Of a DNA stretch of 64,000 nucleotides, positions 2,522 through 52,687 are shown in pieces (position 1 is the stretch's first letter; each line of letters begins with the position of its first letter). The position numbers and the translations under genes were made by a program. Origin of the DNA: Candidatus Gastranaerophilales bacterium (GTDB lineage Bacteria > Cyanobacteriota > Vampirovibrionia > Gastranaerophilales > Gastranaerophilaceae); the NCBI GenBank assembly GCA_944323995.1, contig CALUUN010000001.1:62001-126000 (forward strand), in the 5' to 3' direction. Below the pieces are notes generated by a model. The model had not been told where the DNA came from and did no database searches. It was given only the letters and a program-made list of their open reading frames with translations.

Positions 2522-2764
2522 TTATTGATACTGCTGTACAGTTTTGTTATATCTTGCCGAACGCGCGTTTATGGCGTAGCATGCGATATTCAGACGCTGT
2601 TTCAACAGCATCATGTTTTTATGCATGCTTGCATAATCATTCATTGCCCCGAGCATCTTTTGCGGGTCAACCATTGATTCCATATTGTCATGATTGTCTA
2701 CGCGTTCCTCTGCGTACTTTTTGACCAATAGCTGGTCGATGTAGTCCTCTGCGCCTATTGCCAT
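2522..2764 (-). CDS. Small helical protein, unknown
   Basis: 80 aa preceded by an excellent ribosome binding site (GGGAGGATCTC before ATG), which together with a recognisable promoter supports a real gene. The protein is predicted mainly alpha-helical, with several Met residues in the middle and a C-terminal half rich in Asn/Arg/Tyr. It has no signal peptide or membrane segment, and I recognise no family. Its leader carries the AT-rich promoter element at 2811-2832 also seen before the small gene at 52423 and an orphan locus at 36011, which suggests a shared expression programme. Confidence 0.75.
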   Translation of the reverse strand: MAIGAEDYIDQLLVKKYAEERVDNHDNMESMVDPQKMLGAMNDYASMHKNMMLLKQRLNIACYAINARSARYNKTVQQYQ

Positions 2765-2810: not shown

Positions 2811-2832
2811 TTATATATATTAAGTATATCTT
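2811..2832 (-). promoter_or_regulatory. Shared small-gene promoter element, variant 1
   Basis: Read on the minus strand this is AAGATATACTTAATATATAT, about 45 bases before the ATG at 2764. It matches the element AAGTATATACTTTATATATA at 52375-52394 and 36011-36030 except for one missing base and a T/A change. The upstream TTTGAAAT box of the other two copies is not conserved here. Confidence 0.5.
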
Positions 2833-2889
2833 TCCCGAAAAATTGCCAAAATTCACAAAATCAGATTTACATTTGTTAACATAAAATCA

Positions 2890-28938: not shown

Positions 28939-29089
28939 AAGCTGATAAGTTCAGCTGTCTGAACGCTTTTAGATTAATTTACCCTTGCAATTGTAAAGAA
29001 ATATTAACAAAAAATCCCGAATAAAAGCAATAAATTTCCGCACAATTTTTTTATAAAAGTAAGGTAGGTTAGATAAAGGCAGGTTAGTA

Positions 29090-29920
29090 ATGAGCGGAAT
29101 CGGGAAAGTGGTTTCAAAAGTATTTAACTACGCACAGCGCGGTGCAAAAATTTATGCACCGACAGTTTTCGGAACCGGACAGGAAGTAATGGCAAAAGCA
29201 TATAAAGGTGCCATCACAACAAAAAACCCTTTTAAAGGTCAATTCTGGCAGGATGTTTGGACCGGCACAAAAGAAGCCGGCAAGGCAGCGGAAAAACATG
29301 CACTTGCAGCGCAAAAAAGGCACGGCAGTTTCTGGAAAAGTTCAATTGAAGGTATCAAAACAATTCCTAAAAAAATTGCACAGGGCTGGAAAGTCGGCGG
29401 ATATAAAGCTGCAAAAGCAGGCAAAAATGTCCTTTGGGGTAACATAAAAGGTATATTTAAAGGTATCGGAACAAGAATGCCGGTTATCGGTTCATTGATG
29501 ATACTTGGTTTTGAATTACCGAATATAATTAAAGCAACACTCAATGAAGGACTTGTACAGGGCGCCGCAGAAACGGTCAAAGCAGGTGCAAGACTTGCAG
29601 GCGGTACATTACTCGGTGCAATCGGCACGGCAATAGGCGGCCCGATAGGCGGTATCGTAGGCTTCATACTCGGTGACTGGGTAACAAGCAAAATAGTAGG
29701 CAAAAGTTACTCGGAAAGAAAATACGATGAAAAACAAAAATTAGCCGAACAAACAGCGCAGCAGGCTGTTCAAACAACGGCACCGGTAACATCACCGTAC
29801 GGATATCAAACGCAAGGTTTTAATCCGGCAATGTACCAGCAAATGCTCTACGGCGGTTACGATGATGATTTTATGTACAACGCAATAAACAAACAACCCC
29901 AATTCAATATTCAAGCATAG
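29090..29920 (+). CDS. Glycine-zipper protein, lineage-specific (1)
   Basis: 276 aa. A Lys/Gly-rich basic N-terminal half (repeated KVGGYKAAKAGKNVLWG-type segments) precedes a hydrophobic glycine zipper at about 165-205 (GGTLLGAIGTAIGGPIGGI), then a Gln/Tyr/Asn/Pro-rich tail. No signal peptide. Glycine zippers pack membrane helices or form pores, so membrane association is likely. It shares its architecture, but little plain sequence, with the genes at 30027 and 50267. A ribosome-site-like GGCAGG lies upstream of the ATG. Own terminator at 29923-29946. Confidence 0.7.
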   Translation: MSGIGKVVSKVFNYAQRGAKIYAPTVFGTGQEVMAKAYKGAITTKNPFKGQFWQDVWTGTKEAGKAAEKHALAAQKRHGSFWKSSIEGIKTIPKKIAQGWKVGGYKAAKAGKNVLWGNIKGIFKGIGTRMPVIGSLMILGFELPNIIKATLNEGLVQGAAETVKAGARLAGGTLLGAIGTAIGGPIGGIVGFILGDWVTSKIVGKSYSERKYDEKQKLAEQTAQQAVQTTAPVTSPYGYQTQGFNPAMYQQMLYGGYDDDFMYNAINKQPQFNIQA

Positions 29921-29922
29921 AG

Positions 29923-29946
29923 TTAAGCCCGAAAAAATCGGGCTTA
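29923..29946 (+). terminator. Intrinsic terminator
   Basis: TTAAGCCCGA / TCGGGCTTAA stem, A-rich loop, followed by CATTTTTTAAC. Confidence 0.85.
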
Positions 29947-30026
29947 ACATTTTTTAACATAAAAAGCAATTTTATAAAAAGAAAAAACTTTATATAAATA
30001 CGGGGAATAAATTTTTAGGGGATATA

Positions 30027-31394
30027 ATGTCAGGCAGCGTTCAAAACATAACATTAAATGACTGGACAAATCTTGCAAAGTATGCGACAGGTGCAACGAT
30101 TAACCACACAGATGCACCGCCGATGGGAGCTGTCGGAGCACTTGCAGGATTTCAGGGCGGAGCATGGCTTTTGGCAAACCGTAAAGACCTCAAAGGCGGT
30201 TTTCAAAATATGGCAAAAGAAACTGCCGAAAACAAAAAGATAATGAAATCTTCAAAAAACATTTTTGAAGGCACCAAAAAACTTGCAGCAAAAGAAGAAT
30301 TAATAAATTTTGAGAAAAAATTACCCAAAACAGATGCCTATAAAGCAATCAGAGCAGAAGCACAAAAAGCAATCAAAACCGGTGATTTTTCAAAATTAAA
30401 AATGCTTGAAGAACAAAAAGCAATCGCAGATTATAATGTAACACTTGCAAAACAGGCAGCAGTGCCGAAAACAAAAGTCGGCAAAGGCGTTAAAGCAATA
30501 AAAGACAAAACAGGTTTATCAAGACTTTCATTATTAAATAAGCAGGCGCTTGCAAAAAATGCAACATACAGAACAGCCGCAAAATTTGTAAAAGGCGGCG
30601 GCGGTATGGCAATAATTTCAGCAGCAATTGAAGCGCCGAATGTATATCAAACATATAAAACATTAGGCAAAAAAGCCGGAAACAGACAACTTGCGAAATC
30701 AGCAGTCAATGTTGCAGCAGAAACCGCAGGGTGGGTAGTCGGCGCAAAAGCCGGAGCAGCACTGGGAGCCGCAATAGGTTCGGCTGTACCGGTAGTGGGA
30801 ACTGCAATCGGCGCAGTAGTCGGCGTTGCATGCGGACTTTTGGGCAGCTGGCTCTTCGGTAAAGCATCAAGAGCTATTGTAGGCAAGGATGAACTTGAAA
30901 TTGCACAGGAAAAACAAGCTGAAGAGTTGGCACTTGCAGCACAAAATGACCCTGAACTTCAGCAGGAACTTGCAGTAGCCGTATACGAAGGACTCGAAAG
31001 CGAAGGCGAAGAACTCAGCGAGGACGGGAAAACTGCAGCGGAAAGTCTGGCAAAATATATTGAACAGGGTGACTTTGCAGGAGAAGAAACAACATCGGCA
31101 GCCGCAGATGAAACAGGTTCCGCATCTGCAGCTAAAACAGAAGAAAAACCCTCACCTATTACAACAGATAAAGGTTTACAGGCTCTGTACGGACTTGCAG
31201 GTGATAAACTTTACACATCAAACCCGTTTATGAGCGGCATATTCAATCCGATGGCGTTCAATACAATGGCTTTCAATCCGATGATGATGAACCCGTTTAT
31301 GAACAATCAGTTTATGTTTAATAATTCATTCATAAACCCGTTTATGACAAACTATTTCAATCCTTTTATGATAAACAACAGTTTAGCGGCATAA
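30027..31394 (+). CDS. Glycine-zipper protein with Asn/Pro/Phe/Met-rich tail, lineage-specific (2)
   Basis: 455 aa, ATG with GGGG upstream. Basic helical N-terminal half (residues 60-190), a glycine zipper at about 230-285 (AKAGAALGAAIGSAVPVV and GTAIGAVVGVACGLLG), an acidic Ala/Glu stretch, and a C-terminus built from repeated NPFM/FNPM units (residues about 395-450). No signal peptide or known domain. The tail resembles short-linear-motif or phase-separating segments; I infer nothing firmer. The AAAAACTTTATATAAATAC sequence upstream is loosely like the small-gene promoter. Confidence 0.72.
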   Translation: MSGSVQNITLNDWTNLAKYATGATINHTDAPPMGAVGALAGFQGGAWLLANRKDLKGGFQNMAKETAENKKIMKSSKNIFEGTKKLAAKEELINFEKKLPKTDAYKAIRAEAQKAIKTGDFSKLKMLEEQKAIADYNVTLAKQAAVPKTKVGKGVKAIKDKTGLSRLSLLNKQALAKNATYRTAAKFVKGGGGMAIISAAIEAPNVYQTYKTLGKKAGNRQLAKSAVNVAAETAGWVVGAKAGAALGAAIGSAVPVVGTAIGAVVGVACGLLGSWLFGKASRAIVGKDELEIAQEKQAEELALAAQNDPELQQELAVAVYEGLESEGEELSEDGKTAAESLAKYIEQGDFAGEETTSAAADETGSASAAKTEEKPSPITTDKGLQALYGLAGDKLYTSNPFMSGIFNPMAFNTMAFNPMMMNPFMNNQFMFNNSFINPFMTNYFNPFMINNSLAA

Positions 31395-34449: not shown

Positions 34450-35886
34450 ATGAATGATTGCACAATGACTAAGATAGTTGCGACTCTGGGGCCCGCAAGC
34501 AATTCAAAAGAGGTAATCCGGAGTCTTTTAAAAGCGGGAGTAACCATGTTCAGACTGAACTCATCACACGAAACTCCCGAAGTTCACAAAAAAACACTTG
34601 ATATGATACGCAGTGTTGAAAAAGAAGAAAAAAATTTAATACCCGTGCTTTTGGATTTGCAGGGGCCTAAAATCCGTATAGGAAACCTTGAAAACCCGAT
34701 TGAACTCAAAAAAGGCGAAACCGTGAAATTCCGTCATCATGACAAAATGATTGACGATATCATACCCGTTGACTATGCAGGAATCGCAAAAGATGTTTCA
34801 GAAGGTGAAAAAATATTAATTGACGACGGCAAAATTCAGCTTAAGGTTACAAAAACCGAAAACGATATTGTATACGCCGAAGTATTAACAGACGGTCTTT
34901 TGAAACAACGCAAAGGCATAAACATTCCGGGTTCAACAGGCAGCATAGACGTTTTGACGGAACGCGACAAAATATTTATTGATTTTGCCGTACAAAATCA
35001 TATTGACTACCTCGGACTCTCTTTTGTCCGTAATGCCGATGACGTCAAACAGCTCAGAGAAATTTTAAATTCCAAAAACAGCAATATCAAGATAATTTCA
35101 AAAATAGAAAAACCGCAGGCAGTCGATAACATTGACGCCATTATAGAATTATCTGACGGCATAATGGTTGCCCGCGGGGATTTGGGGATTGAAATTTCTA
35201 CCGAAAAAGTTCCTATAGTACAAAAAACAATAATCAAAAAAGCAAACCTTAAATGCAAAGCGGTAATCGTTGCGACCCAGATGCTTGAAAGCATGATAGA
35301 AAATCCGATTCCGACCCGTGCGGAAGCCTCTGACGTTGCAAATGCCATTCTTGACGGAACAGATGCAATTATGCTTTCCGGCGAAACAGCTGCAGGAAAA
35401 TACCCCGTAGAAGCCGTCAAAATGATGCGGCTTATTGCGGAAAATGCAGAAAACAGCATATTTTTACACCACAACAGTTTCCCAAAACGCATGATTGAAC
35501 AAAATAATACACAGGCAATGGCAATAGGCATGGCACTTTCAGATATGATAAGAAAGGTTCCGAATATCAAAGCCATTGTAGCTCTCACAGCAAGCGGCTT
35601 CACACCGGTATTTTTATCCGAAAGCAAACCATCAGTGCCTATTCTGGCATGCTGTCCTGATATTTCAATATGCAGAACAATTAAACTCTACAGAGCTGTT
35701 TTTCCGATAAACCTTAAATTTGAAGGCAAAATCGACAGATCCTCGCTCGACAGAATGGATAAATTTTTAATGAAGATGCTCAACTTTAACAGCAAAGATA
35801 CAGTAATCATAACCGGCTCGGTTCCGAATGTTCTAAAAGGCGGCACCAACTTCATTAAAATTCACGTGATTAACGAAACAGATTAA
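34450..35886 (+). CDS. pyk: Pyruvate kinase
   Basis: 478 aa glycolytic enzyme producing pyruvate and ATP from PEP and ADP. Motifs: TKIVATLGPAS, FRLNSSHE, LDLQGPKIR, IISKIEKPQAVDNID, MVARGDLGIE (active-site Mg site), ATQMLESM and SGETAAGKYP. It has a regular C-terminal domain (about 345-478) with no PEP-utilizer extension. GGAAGGG lies 7 bases before the ATG. Terminated by the hairpin at 35891-35910. Confidence 0.97.
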   Translation: MNDCTMTKIVATLGPASNSKEVIRSLLKAGVTMFRLNSSHETPEVHKKTLDMIRSVEKEEKNLIPVLLDLQGPKIRIGNLENPIELKKGETVKFRHHDKMIDDIIPVDYAGIAKDVSEGEKILIDDGKIQLKVTKTENDIVYAEVLTDGLLKQRKGINIPGSTGSIDVLTERDKIFIDFAVQNHIDYLGLSFVRNADDVKQLREILNSKNSNIKIISKIEKPQAVDNIDAIIELSDGIMVARGDLGIEISTEKVPIVQKTIIKKANLKCKAVIVATQMLESMIENPIPTRAEASDVANAILDGTDAIMLSGETAAGKYPVEAVKMMRLIAENAENSIFLHHNSFPKRMIEQNNTQAMAIGMALSDMIRKVPNIKAIVALTASGFTPVFLSESKPSVPILACCPDISICRTIKLYRAVFPINLKFEGKIDRSSLDRMDKFLMKMLNFNSKDTVIITGSVPNVLKGGTNFIKIHVINETD

Positions 35887-36005
35887 AAAAAAGCCCCTGA
35901 AAAGGGGCTTAAATTTTTTCTAGGAAATAGGAATAGGAAATTCGTCTCTCTTTACTTAAACGGAAATAATCTCTCTCTTAACATCTCTCGTATTGATTAA
36001 TGTTC
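35884..36005 (-). ncRNA. Orphan promoter-to-terminator transcript, possible small RNA
   Basis: A copy of the shared small-gene promoter (36011-36046, minus strand) would start an RNA of about 120 nt running to the AAGCCCC/GGGGCTT hairpin followed by eight T. The only frame is about 10 codons (MLRERLFPFK). Its AGAGAGAGA leader and CCTATTCCTATTTCCTAG 3' region echo the leader and the CCTATATTCCTACTAC 3' UTR of the 52423 gene. It looks either like a small RNA or like that cassette with the coding part deleted. Confidence 0.45.
35891..35910. terminator. Bidirectional terminator after pyk
   Basis: AAGCCCCTGAAAAGGGGCTT, flanked by A8 on one side (T8 for the minus strand) and AAATTTTTTC on the other. 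Confidence 0.85.
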
Positions 36006-36010
36006 TCTTG

Positions 36011-36046
36011 TATATATAAAGTATATACTTTTAAGCCGATTTCAAA
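36011..36046 (-). promoter_or_regulatory. Shared small-gene promoter element, variant 2
   Basis: Minus strand: TTTGAAAT, 8 bases, then AAGTATATACTTTATATATA. The box order, spacing and 20-base core are identical to 52359-52394. AAGTATATACTT is a perfect 12-bp palindrome. Confidence 0.65.
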
Positions 36047-36152
36047 AATAAGAAATTCTGTTACAAAAGTTAATGAAAAAATTTGCCAATTAAAAGTGTT
36101 TAAAGTACAATAAGAAAGTATCACTTATGAATAACAATTTTGGGGTTAAGAA

Positions 36153-50266: not shown

Positions 50267-52261
50267 CTACCATTTCATAGCAAGAGTTTCCATGGCCATT
50301 TTTTCCGCAATATCGGCTCTTGCAAGTGCAGCATTTGCAGCTGTCGGATCTTCACCTTTAACCTGTACTCCCACAGGTGACGGGATATAAGTTCTTACCG
50401 GTTCCAATACCTTGCCGTCATCTTTTTGCGGCTCACCGTTGATTATGGTTGTATTGTTCACATTATTTGTAACCGTAGAACGCGGCGGCTGATATTTTTG
50501 TCCGTTCTGATACATATTTAAAAGATTTGAAGGAGAATTCGGAATAACCGTCGGCCGGTTGCTGAACGGATTATTCTGCGGATTATTTAACTGATTTTGC
50601 AATTCCTGCAACTGTTCCGGAGTCATTTCAGGTTCTTTTTCTTCATCAAGAACTGATTTTGTCGGTTTGCCGAACACTTTGTTTTCAGCTTTTGTAAATA
50701 CCTTTGCTACAATCGGCACAAGCAAAGCTGTCGGAATCAATAATCTTAACGGAACACCGGCACAGTTTTTCAAGAAATTCGGAACTTTTCTCAGGAAGTT
50801 CAAATTCATTTTTGAAGCGGATTTGTACGCTGCACGGGTTTCGTTACCGACGTTTATAAGTCTGCCGATACCTTTAAACATGCGGGTAATCGGATTTTTA
50901 ACATCGGCTTTTAACATATCAGACAATGCTTTTTTAGCTGCTTTATATTCAGCTTTTGTAGCGAAGGCGCCTGCCTTTGCTTTTTCGTTGAAAGTTTTTA
51001 AGGCTGCTCTATATGCTTCAACGCCTTTTTTATCAAGACCGGCATATTTCATACCGCCGGCTTTGTGCATTGCAAGATATGCAAACGGCAAAGCCATAAA
51101 GTAAGAAAAGTCGTTCACAAACCTTTCCATAAATGTTTTGAATTTTTCACCCTTGGGCGCGATGAATGAATTAGCCAGCATATCACCGAAGATAAAGGCC
51201 TGCATAAACACTGCCAGTTTACCGCCGGCGAATCTGTTTGTTGTACCTTCCAAGAAATATCCGAACGCTTTGGGCAAAAGTCTGCCGAGTTTTGTTTTGT
51301 TTCCTTTACCTAAAGTTGCGATAAATTTATTTCTTAATTCCGGTATTGTAACTTTTCTGCCGAACAGATGCGCTTTTACTTTACCTAAAGTACCGTATTT
51401 TCTGGTAACTGCAATCGACATTTTGTCATCGGCTTTGAGCAGAGCCTGATAGATTTTATCAATATTTTCAAGTCCGCCTTTGGAAACTTTTTCAAATTCG
51501 CCGAGATTTCTGAACCCGAGTTTGCGGGCTTTAATATGTTTTGCATATTCATTAAGGCCGTTTATCCCCTTTTTACCGAAAATCTTATCAATACTTGAAG
51601 ATTTTACCCCGAGCGCCTTTAATTCTTCTTTAGCAAGCACAGAGGCTTTATCTGCTTTATTCAATCCTTTTAATGTTTTAGCGACATTGTCAATTTGCTC
51701 TTTTGTGTAACCGAACTGTTCGAGCTTTTGAACGTCATCTATCGGCTTCATGAAATAACCGAACAATTGCTCGGTATCCATGGCTAAAAAGCCCTTAAGA
51801 CCGGCACCGGTATTTTTTGCCCAGTTCCATTCGGCCTGCGTCGGAGTATTGGTTACTGCATAAGCCAGCTTGCTTTTGCCCGTAAGCCAATTCCAGCCTT
51901 TTTCAACTCCATGCCAGGCCTTTTGAACTCCTTTACCGACTGTAGTATTTGTAAATTTATTCTGAACTTTGTCACCCCAGTTGCCTAATCTTCCGAGAAC
52001 TGACTCTTCATATTTTCCGGCGCACTTGGGCCCGAATTTATCCATCGCCTGTGCAAGACCGTACCATGATGCAAGCGAAAGCCCCAGCGTCAAATTAGGG
52101 TTTGCTTCTTCCGAGGCTTTAACACGATTTGCAAGATAAGAATTATCGACAGATTGCTTTACCGCCTGCGGATCAATTCCCGCCTGCATGGAAGGATTTG
52201 TTCCGTAAGCCTGCCCCGTTACCGGCACATTATATTTGTAATTTACATTGTTACTAACCAT
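50267..52261 (-). CDS. Large lineage-specific helical/membrane-associated protein (3)
   Basis: 664 aa, no signal peptide. Many Lys/Gly/Ala-rich amphipathic helices (residues 60-460). Two hydrophobic segments, one about residues 350-400 (FMQAFIFGDMLANSFIA, FSYFMALPFAYLAMH) and one about 503-520 (LRLLIPTALLVPIVAKVF). Then an Asn/Pro/Gln-rich disordered tail with NNPQNNPFSNRP. The plan of basic helices, a hydrophobic block and an NPF-rich tail parallels the proteins at 29090 and 30027. Function unknown; membrane insertion is plausible. The promoter region holds TATAATATTATAG. Confidence 0.75.
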   Translation of the reverse strand: MVSNNVNYKYNVPVTGQAYGTNPSMQAGIDPQAVKQSVDNSYLANRVKASEEANPNLTLGLSLASWYGLAQAMDKFGPKCAGKYEESVLGRLGNWGDKVQNKFTNTTVGKGVQKAWHGVEKGWNWLTGKSKLAYAVTNTPTQAEWNWAKNTGAGLKGFLAMDTEQLFGYFMKPIDDVQKLEQFGYTKEQIDNVAKTLKGLNKADKASVLAKEELKALGVKSSSIDKIFGKKGINGLNEYAKHIKARKLGFRNLGEFEKVSKGGLENIDKIYQALLKADDKMSIAVTRKYGTLGKVKAHLFGRKVTIPELRNKFIATLGKGNKTKLGRLLPKAFGYFLEGTTNRFAGGKLAVFMQAFIFGDMLANSFIAPKGEKFKTFMERFVNDFSYFMALPFAYLAMHKAGGMKYAGLDKKGVEAYRAALKTFNEKAKAGAFATKAEYKAAKKALSDMLKADVKNPITRMFKGIGRLINVGNETRAAYKSASKMNLNFLRKVPNFLKNCAGVPLRLLIPTALLVPIVAKVFTKAENKVFGKPTKSVLDEEKEPEMTPEQLQELQNQLNNPQNNPFSNRPTVIPNSPSNLLNMYQNGQKYQPPRSTVTNNVNNTTIINGEPQKDDGKVLEPVRTYIPSPVGVQVKGEDPTAANAALARADIAEKMAMETLAMKW

Positions 52262-52358
52262 AAACCTACTATTTTCCCTATAATATTATAAAAACAAAAG
52301 CCCCGTCATAATTGCCTTTTAAATCCAAATGTAAACAAATGTAACAAGTTTAAGCAAG

Positions 52359-52394
52359 TTTGAAATTCAAAGATAAGTATATACTTTATATATA
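52359..52394 (+). promoter_or_regulatory. Shared small-gene promoter element, variant 3
   Basis: TTTGAAAT (52359-52366), 8 bases, AAGTATATACTTTATATATA (52375-52394), then ATGTAAGAGTTGAGAGAGAG leading to the ATG at 52423. Identical boxes to 36011-36046. Confidence 0.65.
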
Positions 52395-52422: not shown

Positions 52423-52593
52423 ATGGCAGTAGCTAATTTGAAAAAAATAGACGAGAAGTTGAAAGACATGTATAACGAACAGGTCACAACAACCGCAAAC
52501 AACGCACAGTCCTTTGTAGACCGATCCGATTTATTATTTGAGCAAATGAACTTCATCGCAATATACAATAAACAGGCTTTACATTTAATCTAA
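52423..52593 (+). CDS. Small 56-aa helical protein, unknown
   Basis: A complete frame of 56 codons (MAVANLKKIDEKLKDMYNEQ ... NKQALHLI) behind the shared small-gene promoter and a GAGAGAGAGG leader. Charged N-terminal helix, Thr/Asn/Ala middle, hydrophobic C-terminal helix. No signal peptide or known family. It has its own 3' UTR and strong terminator at 52659-52687, so it is transcribed alone. The dedicated promoter and terminator argue for a highly expressed small structural or regulatory protein; that is inference. Confidence 0.7.
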   Translation: MAVANLKKIDEKLKDMYNEQVTTTANNAQSFVDRSDLLFEQMNFIAIYNKQALHLI

Positions 52594-52658
52594 TATCCTA
52601 TATTCCTACTACAAATTTTTAACTAACTCCAATTAATTTTTCCCCTACAAATTTTGCA

Positions 52659-52687
52659 CCTGATTTGAAAAAATCAGGTTTTTTTTA
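52659..52687 (+). terminator. Intrinsic terminator of the 56-aa gene
   Basis: CCTGATTT-GAAA-AAATCAGG followed by eight T. Confidence 0.92.

Follow-up and report, generated by a model that had tools for sequence, protein, structure and literature searches.

The repeat TTTGAAAT-N8-AAGTATATACTTTATATATA, located at 52359-52394 (+) and 36046-36011 (-) of a 64,000-nucleotide stretch of DNA (here called the window; 38% G+C) from a Candidatus Gastranaerophilales MAG of 1.75 Mb, is on comparative evidence part of a family-specific promoter class, and the palindrome that it contains is incidental. In this genome the class is predicted to comprise about 24 transcripts, most of which encode orphan proteins. 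The best explanation, to which we assign a probability of roughly 0.7, is a family-specific regulon that would be activated by the response regulator RpaB at promoters of an activator-dependent type.

The repeat was found at both places given in an earlier note on this DNA, together with its close variant AAAGATATACTTAATATATA at 2833-2814 (-); shuffling of the window yielded no match comparable to the repeat. A genome-wide motif search with listing of the downstream genes revealed nine exact copies of the 15-mer TATACTTNATATATA in 1.75 Mb, eight of which precede an ORF or a small RNA (sRNA). There is strong support for the proposal that the motif marks a regulon in which a single regulator governs small orphan proteins and RNAs: the distance to the ATG is nearly constant, the motif is kept before orthologs across the family, and it also heads a conserved sRNA. 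That the targets are small genes holds for the 80-aa protein, the 56-aa protein and the sRNA in the window, but not for several other targets of 245-495 aa. The window contains at least one more strong member, the core at 29965-29996; this core, the weak site at 29026-29057 and an upstream direct repeat resembling the cyanobacterial HLR1 element are absent from the earlier note.

A first model was built from an alignment of eight exact copies of TATACTTNATATATA and three near copies. This sequence-only covariance model, R1, recovered the aligned copies plus additional weaker sites, most of which precede ORFs of orphan proteins; 11 weaker sites also carry a GCAATT-like block 5' at about equal spacing. 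The base frequencies of 40 strong sites (11 from the own genome, 29 from other genomes) gave KGMAATT-N15-ACTTTATATA as the conserved core. KGMAATT, at -22 to -16, forms a -35-like block; its usual form is GGCAATT, fixed 15 nt from ACTTTATATA, and TTTGAAAT is one form of this block. In the 40 sites the 15 spacer bases are weakly conserved except for the last few (ATAT), and a TAYAAG-like sequence follows 3' of ACTTTATATA. The 29 sites from other genomes had been picked by ATACTTTATATATATAAG alone, and KGMAATT is found at a single fixed distance in them. The ATG is located at a median distance of 40 nt from the core, with 75% of the distances within 35-45 nt. When TTGACA-N16-18-TATAAT was searched around two promoters, the core was not among the sigma-70-type sites listed; by its sequence, the core is devoid of a canonical sigma-70 -35/-10 pair.

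Table 1. Promoter elements and associated genes of the class in the window (positions in the window; HLR1 scores as matching positions of 16).
Feature	Position	Strand	Remark
HLR1-like element GTTACATTTGTTTACATT	52328-52345	-	16/16 to KTTACAWWNNKTTACAWW
Core promoter TGAAATT-N15-ACTTTATATA	52361-52392	+	predicted transcription start ~52397
56-aa orphan ORF	52423-52593	+	terminator-like hairpin 52658-52679
HLR1-like element, GTTACAAAAGTTAATGAA on opposite strand	36060-36077	-	13/16, hand count
Core promoter TGAAATC-N15-ACTTTATATA	36013-36044	-	heads sRNA
Conserved small RNA, ~120 nt	35885-36008	-	intrinsic terminator stem 35910-35891
HLR1-like element TTTACATTTGTTAACATA	2866-2883	+	15/16
Core promoter GGCAATT-N15-ACTTAATATA	2816-2847	-	before 80-aa gene
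80-aa protein	2522-2764	-	76/78 family genomes
HLR1-like element TTAACATTTTTTAACATA	29944-29961	+	14/16
Core promoter AGCAATT-N15-ACTTTATATA	29965-29996	+	strong member, before 455-aa gene
455-aa protein	30027-31394	+	downstream of 29965-29996 core, without Pfam match
Weak candidate promoter	29026-29057	+	score 10.5; HLR1 14/16 upstream
276-aa ORF	29090-29920	+	behind weak candidate promoter

For the 56-aa ORF no match was found in Pfam or PHROGs, and a tblastn search for homologs among the fetched loci returned only the ORF itself; locus L095 encodes an N-terminus that resembles, by eye, that of the 56-aa ORF. Divergent from the promoter of this ORF lies a gene for a 664-aa protein (50267-52261, -) with no Pfam or PHROGs match; it shares the perfect HLR1 site and may be controlled from that element. 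Products of the target genes mostly lack a Pfam family, the exceptions being YkuD, SLT, HD and RHH domains, and when 74 products from several genomes were clustered, 16 fell into one group and many remained singletons.

The distribution of the class was analyzed in related genomes; the evidence is comparative throughout, and the E-values of the models are rough. Random occurrence of the motif, which the earlier note had named as the outcome that would speak against a regulon, was not observed: the 18-mer ATACTTTATATATATAAG has 77 exact copies, located in 32 of 60 family genomes, and the reversed pattern has none. The training set of a second core model, R3, comprised 19 own and five foreign sites. 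R3 detected 24 sites in this genome, which is the least independent figure because the model was largely trained there, 8-35 sites per genome in 11 further members of the family, and 31 and 34 sites in two more; as the training set consisted mostly of own-genome sites, training has little bearing on the counts obtained elsewhere. The class was thus present in all 14 family genomes scanned. Outside the family, R3 found 0-1 sites per genome in 15 genomes from other families of the phylum.

These counts bear on the idea that the motif is a coincidence of base composition or the generic housekeeping promoter of the lineage. The genome is indeed AT-rich; however, the reversed-pattern control gave zero, even a genome with 13165 first-look candidates outside the family contained no more than one match, and the core model exceeded a score of 20 at only four sites of the window. 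We regard this idea as practically negligible. Hardly more probable is that the 12-bp palindrome AAGTATATACTT, which the earlier note had placed at the center of the motif, serves as the operator of a dedicated regulator or as a dyad of the MerR type within a long spacer. Two window copies do contain a perfect dyad, and the spacer to TATATA is long, but the exact palindrome occurs in only two of 51 promoters and in three copies genome-wide, one of them in another context. A palindromic operator was rejected because both arms would then be conserved across sites: ACTT is conserved in 47 of the 51 promoters, unlike the left arm, which is near background and carries almost no information.

HLR1, the site of RpaB in cyanobacteria, has the consensus KTTACAWW-N2-KTTACAWW, and an activating HLR1 is positioned there at -45 to -66 from the transcription start (PMC13421787). 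Between the core and -110, the hexamers TTGTAA, TGTAAA, TGTAAC, TAACAA and TTAACA were found to be over-represented; combined, they form a direct repeat of 10-bp periodicity which matches HLR1. Taking the best match on either strand of this AT-rich genome to the cyanobacterial consensus, at least 13 of 16 positions were matched in 90% of the 51 promoters, several of them reaching 16/16, as compared to 24% of first-order Markov shuffles. The same threshold was reached in 8% of cases in the region 200-286 bp upstream and before four of 33 other window genes (12%), one of these via the shared site at 52328-52345. The best match averaged 14.1/16, against 11.95 (sd 0.09) after shuffling. Centers of the HLR1-like elements are mostly located -45 to -50 from the core, with a second group at -34, corresponding to about -48 to -64 from the predicted transcription start.

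The genome encodes three OmpR-type DNA-binding regulators. One of them (L176:491-1240) is an RpaB ortholog with 362 bits on NF045944, for which the NCBIfam equivalog cut-off is 330; the other two reach 209 and 212 bits on this model. Of 117 genomes from the phylum, 108 have a protein above the cut-off of NF045944. Since the core is absent from other families that carry RpaB, the presence of RpaB is not enough to account for it. RpaB is the best-supported regulator of the class, with predicted binding at the HLR1-like element. Homologs of RpaA, RpaB and NblS have been reported in Melainabacteria (Di Rienzi 2013, PMC3787301; Soo 2014, PMC4040986), i.e. the same regulator in the same lineage as here, and it was considered that retained regulators may have another function (Di Rienzi 2013); the passages of these papers dealing with the regulators propose no binding site, target or promoter, unlike the present analysis. 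With the RpaB/HLR1 regulon of Synechocystis 6803 and Synechococcus 7942, the class shares the HLR1 repeat, a predicted upstream position that would fit activation, the RpaB ortholog and a target set that includes one small RNA (PMC13421787, PMC6202907). It differs from that regulon in that photosynthesis genes are absent and orphan proteins are the targets, and in that the core promoter is non-canonical for sigma-70 and confined to one family. Together, this suggests a new job for RpaB in non-photosynthetic gut relatives of cyanobacteria.

The promoter class, its spacing and conservation, the enrichment of HLR1-like elements, the RpaB ortholog and the conservation of the RNA were established computationally; from these we infer RpaB binding, activation, the start site and the action of the RNA. 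An RpaB dimer would occupy the HLR1-like repeat, some 45-60 bp ahead of the transcription start, and recruit RNA polymerase to the KGMAATT-N15-ACTTTATATA core. Transcription would then start a few bases past the TATATA run, giving short leaders with the ATG about 25 nt further. Among the about 24 transcripts, one sRNA of about 120 nt would probably pair with ribosome-binding regions, perhaps with that of the 80-aa gene, in the manner of PsrR1 in the RpaB circuit of cyanobacteria.

Part of this scheme could be assigned to other proteins. The core might be read by an alternative sigma factor, which would make the class a sigma regulon and the HLR1-like repeat secondary. The -35-like block is fixed, strongly conserved and different from TTGACA, TATATA lies about 19-20 nt away and hence too far for optimal sigma-70, and several sigma-70 family proteins exist besides RpoD (FliA/WhiG, SigBFG-like and RpoD-like paralogs), one of whose genes (L169) is preceded by weak sites. 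However, no sigma factor could be linked to the sites, and the HLR1-like element keeps so regular a position that a secondary role does not fit; we therefore lean against a sigma regulon while taking it seriously. The sigma and RpaB ideas are not mutually exclusive. Related OmpR-type regulators share half-site preferences, here of the TGTAAC type, so that the repeat could instead be bound by one of the other two, L177 or L178 (possibly RpaA-like). The genome has only three such DNA-binding domains, which keeps these two in play; RpaB alone exceeds the equivalog cut-off, though, and the HLR1-like consensus is the known RpaB site, which makes a different OmpR-type binder unlikely. The sites at L169 (G000:C5), two in number and core-like with scores of 14.0 and 11.8, are located before an RpoD-like paralogous sigma gene.

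The sRNA of the predicted RpaB regulon carries repeated GAGAGA and UUCCUA motifs and is convergent with pyruvate kinase; in 12 of the 20 copies this gene lay in the flanking sequence that was retrieved. The pyruvate kinase of the window has its nearest relatives mostly in Gastranaerophilales MAGs, at 67-84% identity. An RNA-only model detected the sRNA in 32 of 78 genomes; in all 20 best copies the RNA match is preceded by a promoter core whose start lies 10-25 nt away. In 16 of the 20 copies the highest-scoring HLR1-like match is centered at -46, while three (L196, L201, L203) have theirs at -33 to -36; for the window copy (L187), the scripted search gave a best match of 13/16 at -58, and a hand count 13/16 at -46. 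The sRNA is absent from Rfam, as only tRNAs reached the gathering score in the window; the best sub-threshold match was MicA (32.9 versus a gathering score of 41). No conserved ORF was found in the sRNA, the short ORF of the window copy needing an ATG that is missing in most relatives, and its secondary structure is weak (z -1.4).

Pairing of the sRNA with the regulon leaders as a group showed no excess (p 0.16). Duplex energies with the cognate 80-aa leader were slightly better than those of shuffles (mean z -0.9). Contiguous complementarity was 21.1 for cognate and 19.5 for non-cognate leaders (combined p ~5e-5), a comparison which followed one strong own-genome value and which covers 20 related, not independent genomes. 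These values hint at a possible pairing of the sRNA with the 80-aa leader. A conserved trans-type sRNA at an HLR1-like promoter, with UUCCUA motifs that could pair with ribosome-binding regions, recalls the RpaB-PsrR1 feed-forward loop; unlike PsrR1, the RNA described here lies outside Rfam, its target is only suggested, and no sequence relation of the two was shown. A class promoter in L073 (G000:C1:204119-204152, -), with a terminator-like tail and no ORF of at least 35 aa close behind, may head a second small RNA; L077 is a similar case.

The 80-aa protein was found in 76 of 78 family genomes and in all 41 genera. Upstream regions were read for 49 orthologs, up to a fiftieth locus that yielded no ORF of fitting length; 46 of them had a core score >10. 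The remaining ones (L277, L280, L282), which belong to divergent proteins, scored 5.3, 6.4 and 8.1, and GGCAATT, AGCAATT or GTCAATT was kept. Its predicted structure (pLDDT 73.6) consists of a helix at residues 8-18 and a long helix at 34-69. Searches of Pfam, PHROGs, PDB profiles and Foldseek gave nothing convincing, the fold test being weak at this pLDDT. With the small proteins of type III needles and flagellar rods it has in common a length of about 80 aa, helicity and a near-universal presence in genomes with an FlhA-type gate; it differs from them in that neither sequence nor fold matched. A needle identity, prompted by length and helices, was dropped because Pfam, PDB profile and Foldseek did not support it. 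In L242-L264 the leader of the 80-aa gene is long (58-117 nt from core to ATG) and contains the recurring UAAGGAAUAUUUAGGAUA; CUUUCUC motifs occur in many of these genomes, and the leader motifs are partly complementary to the sRNA.

It is conceivable, although we would not count on it, that the regulon products are substrates or parts of a flagellar/type III-like export apparatus, which is compatible with control by RpaB; export of the products through the FlhA-type gate of the family is a guess. FHIPEP (FlhA/SctV-type gate) was found in 39 of 40 family genomes, the SLT and YkuD members of the regulon have no obvious signal peptide by eye, and a candidate site (L182:3547) with an HLR1 consensus by eye precedes two small genes beside a FliE-FliF-FliH-FlhA cluster. 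The own FlhA-like protein falls under both cut-offs (FlhA 698/772 bits, SctV 581/692 bits). Against export, the core score of the L182 site is weak (4.0), the apparatus genes themselves lack such a promoter, and regulon proteins show no sequence similarity to those of the FlhA cluster.

RpaB is an ancestral light/redox regulator with a role in light acclimation in photosynthetic cyanobacteria. What RpaB does in non-photosynthetic Melainabacteria has been a question since 2013, as raised in the passages on these regulators (PMC3787301, PMC4040986), and the regulon is a candidate answer. Tentatively, RpaB might have been redeployed to a family-specific core and 8-35 envelope- or export-linked transcripts, with the sRNA restraining the 80-aa product in a feed-forward loop. 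A defined site, a core, about 24 targets and a conserved sRNA make the question testable by binding and reporter assays. Furthermore, the promoter model can be used for annotating uncultured gut genomes of the family: it groups otherwise uncharacterised orphan genes and marks the 80-aa protein, which is nearly universal, as a hallmark of the family.

The FliE-FliF-unknown-FliH-FlhA cluster is located on G000:C4 (L182:6587-12425), and the genome has one full-length gate gene. A protein of about 490-500 aa, encoded at L184:6819-8297 (-) on G000:C7, matches the cytoplasmic part of FlhA alone (profile ~315-654); such a protein accompanies full-length FlhA in nearly every family genome.
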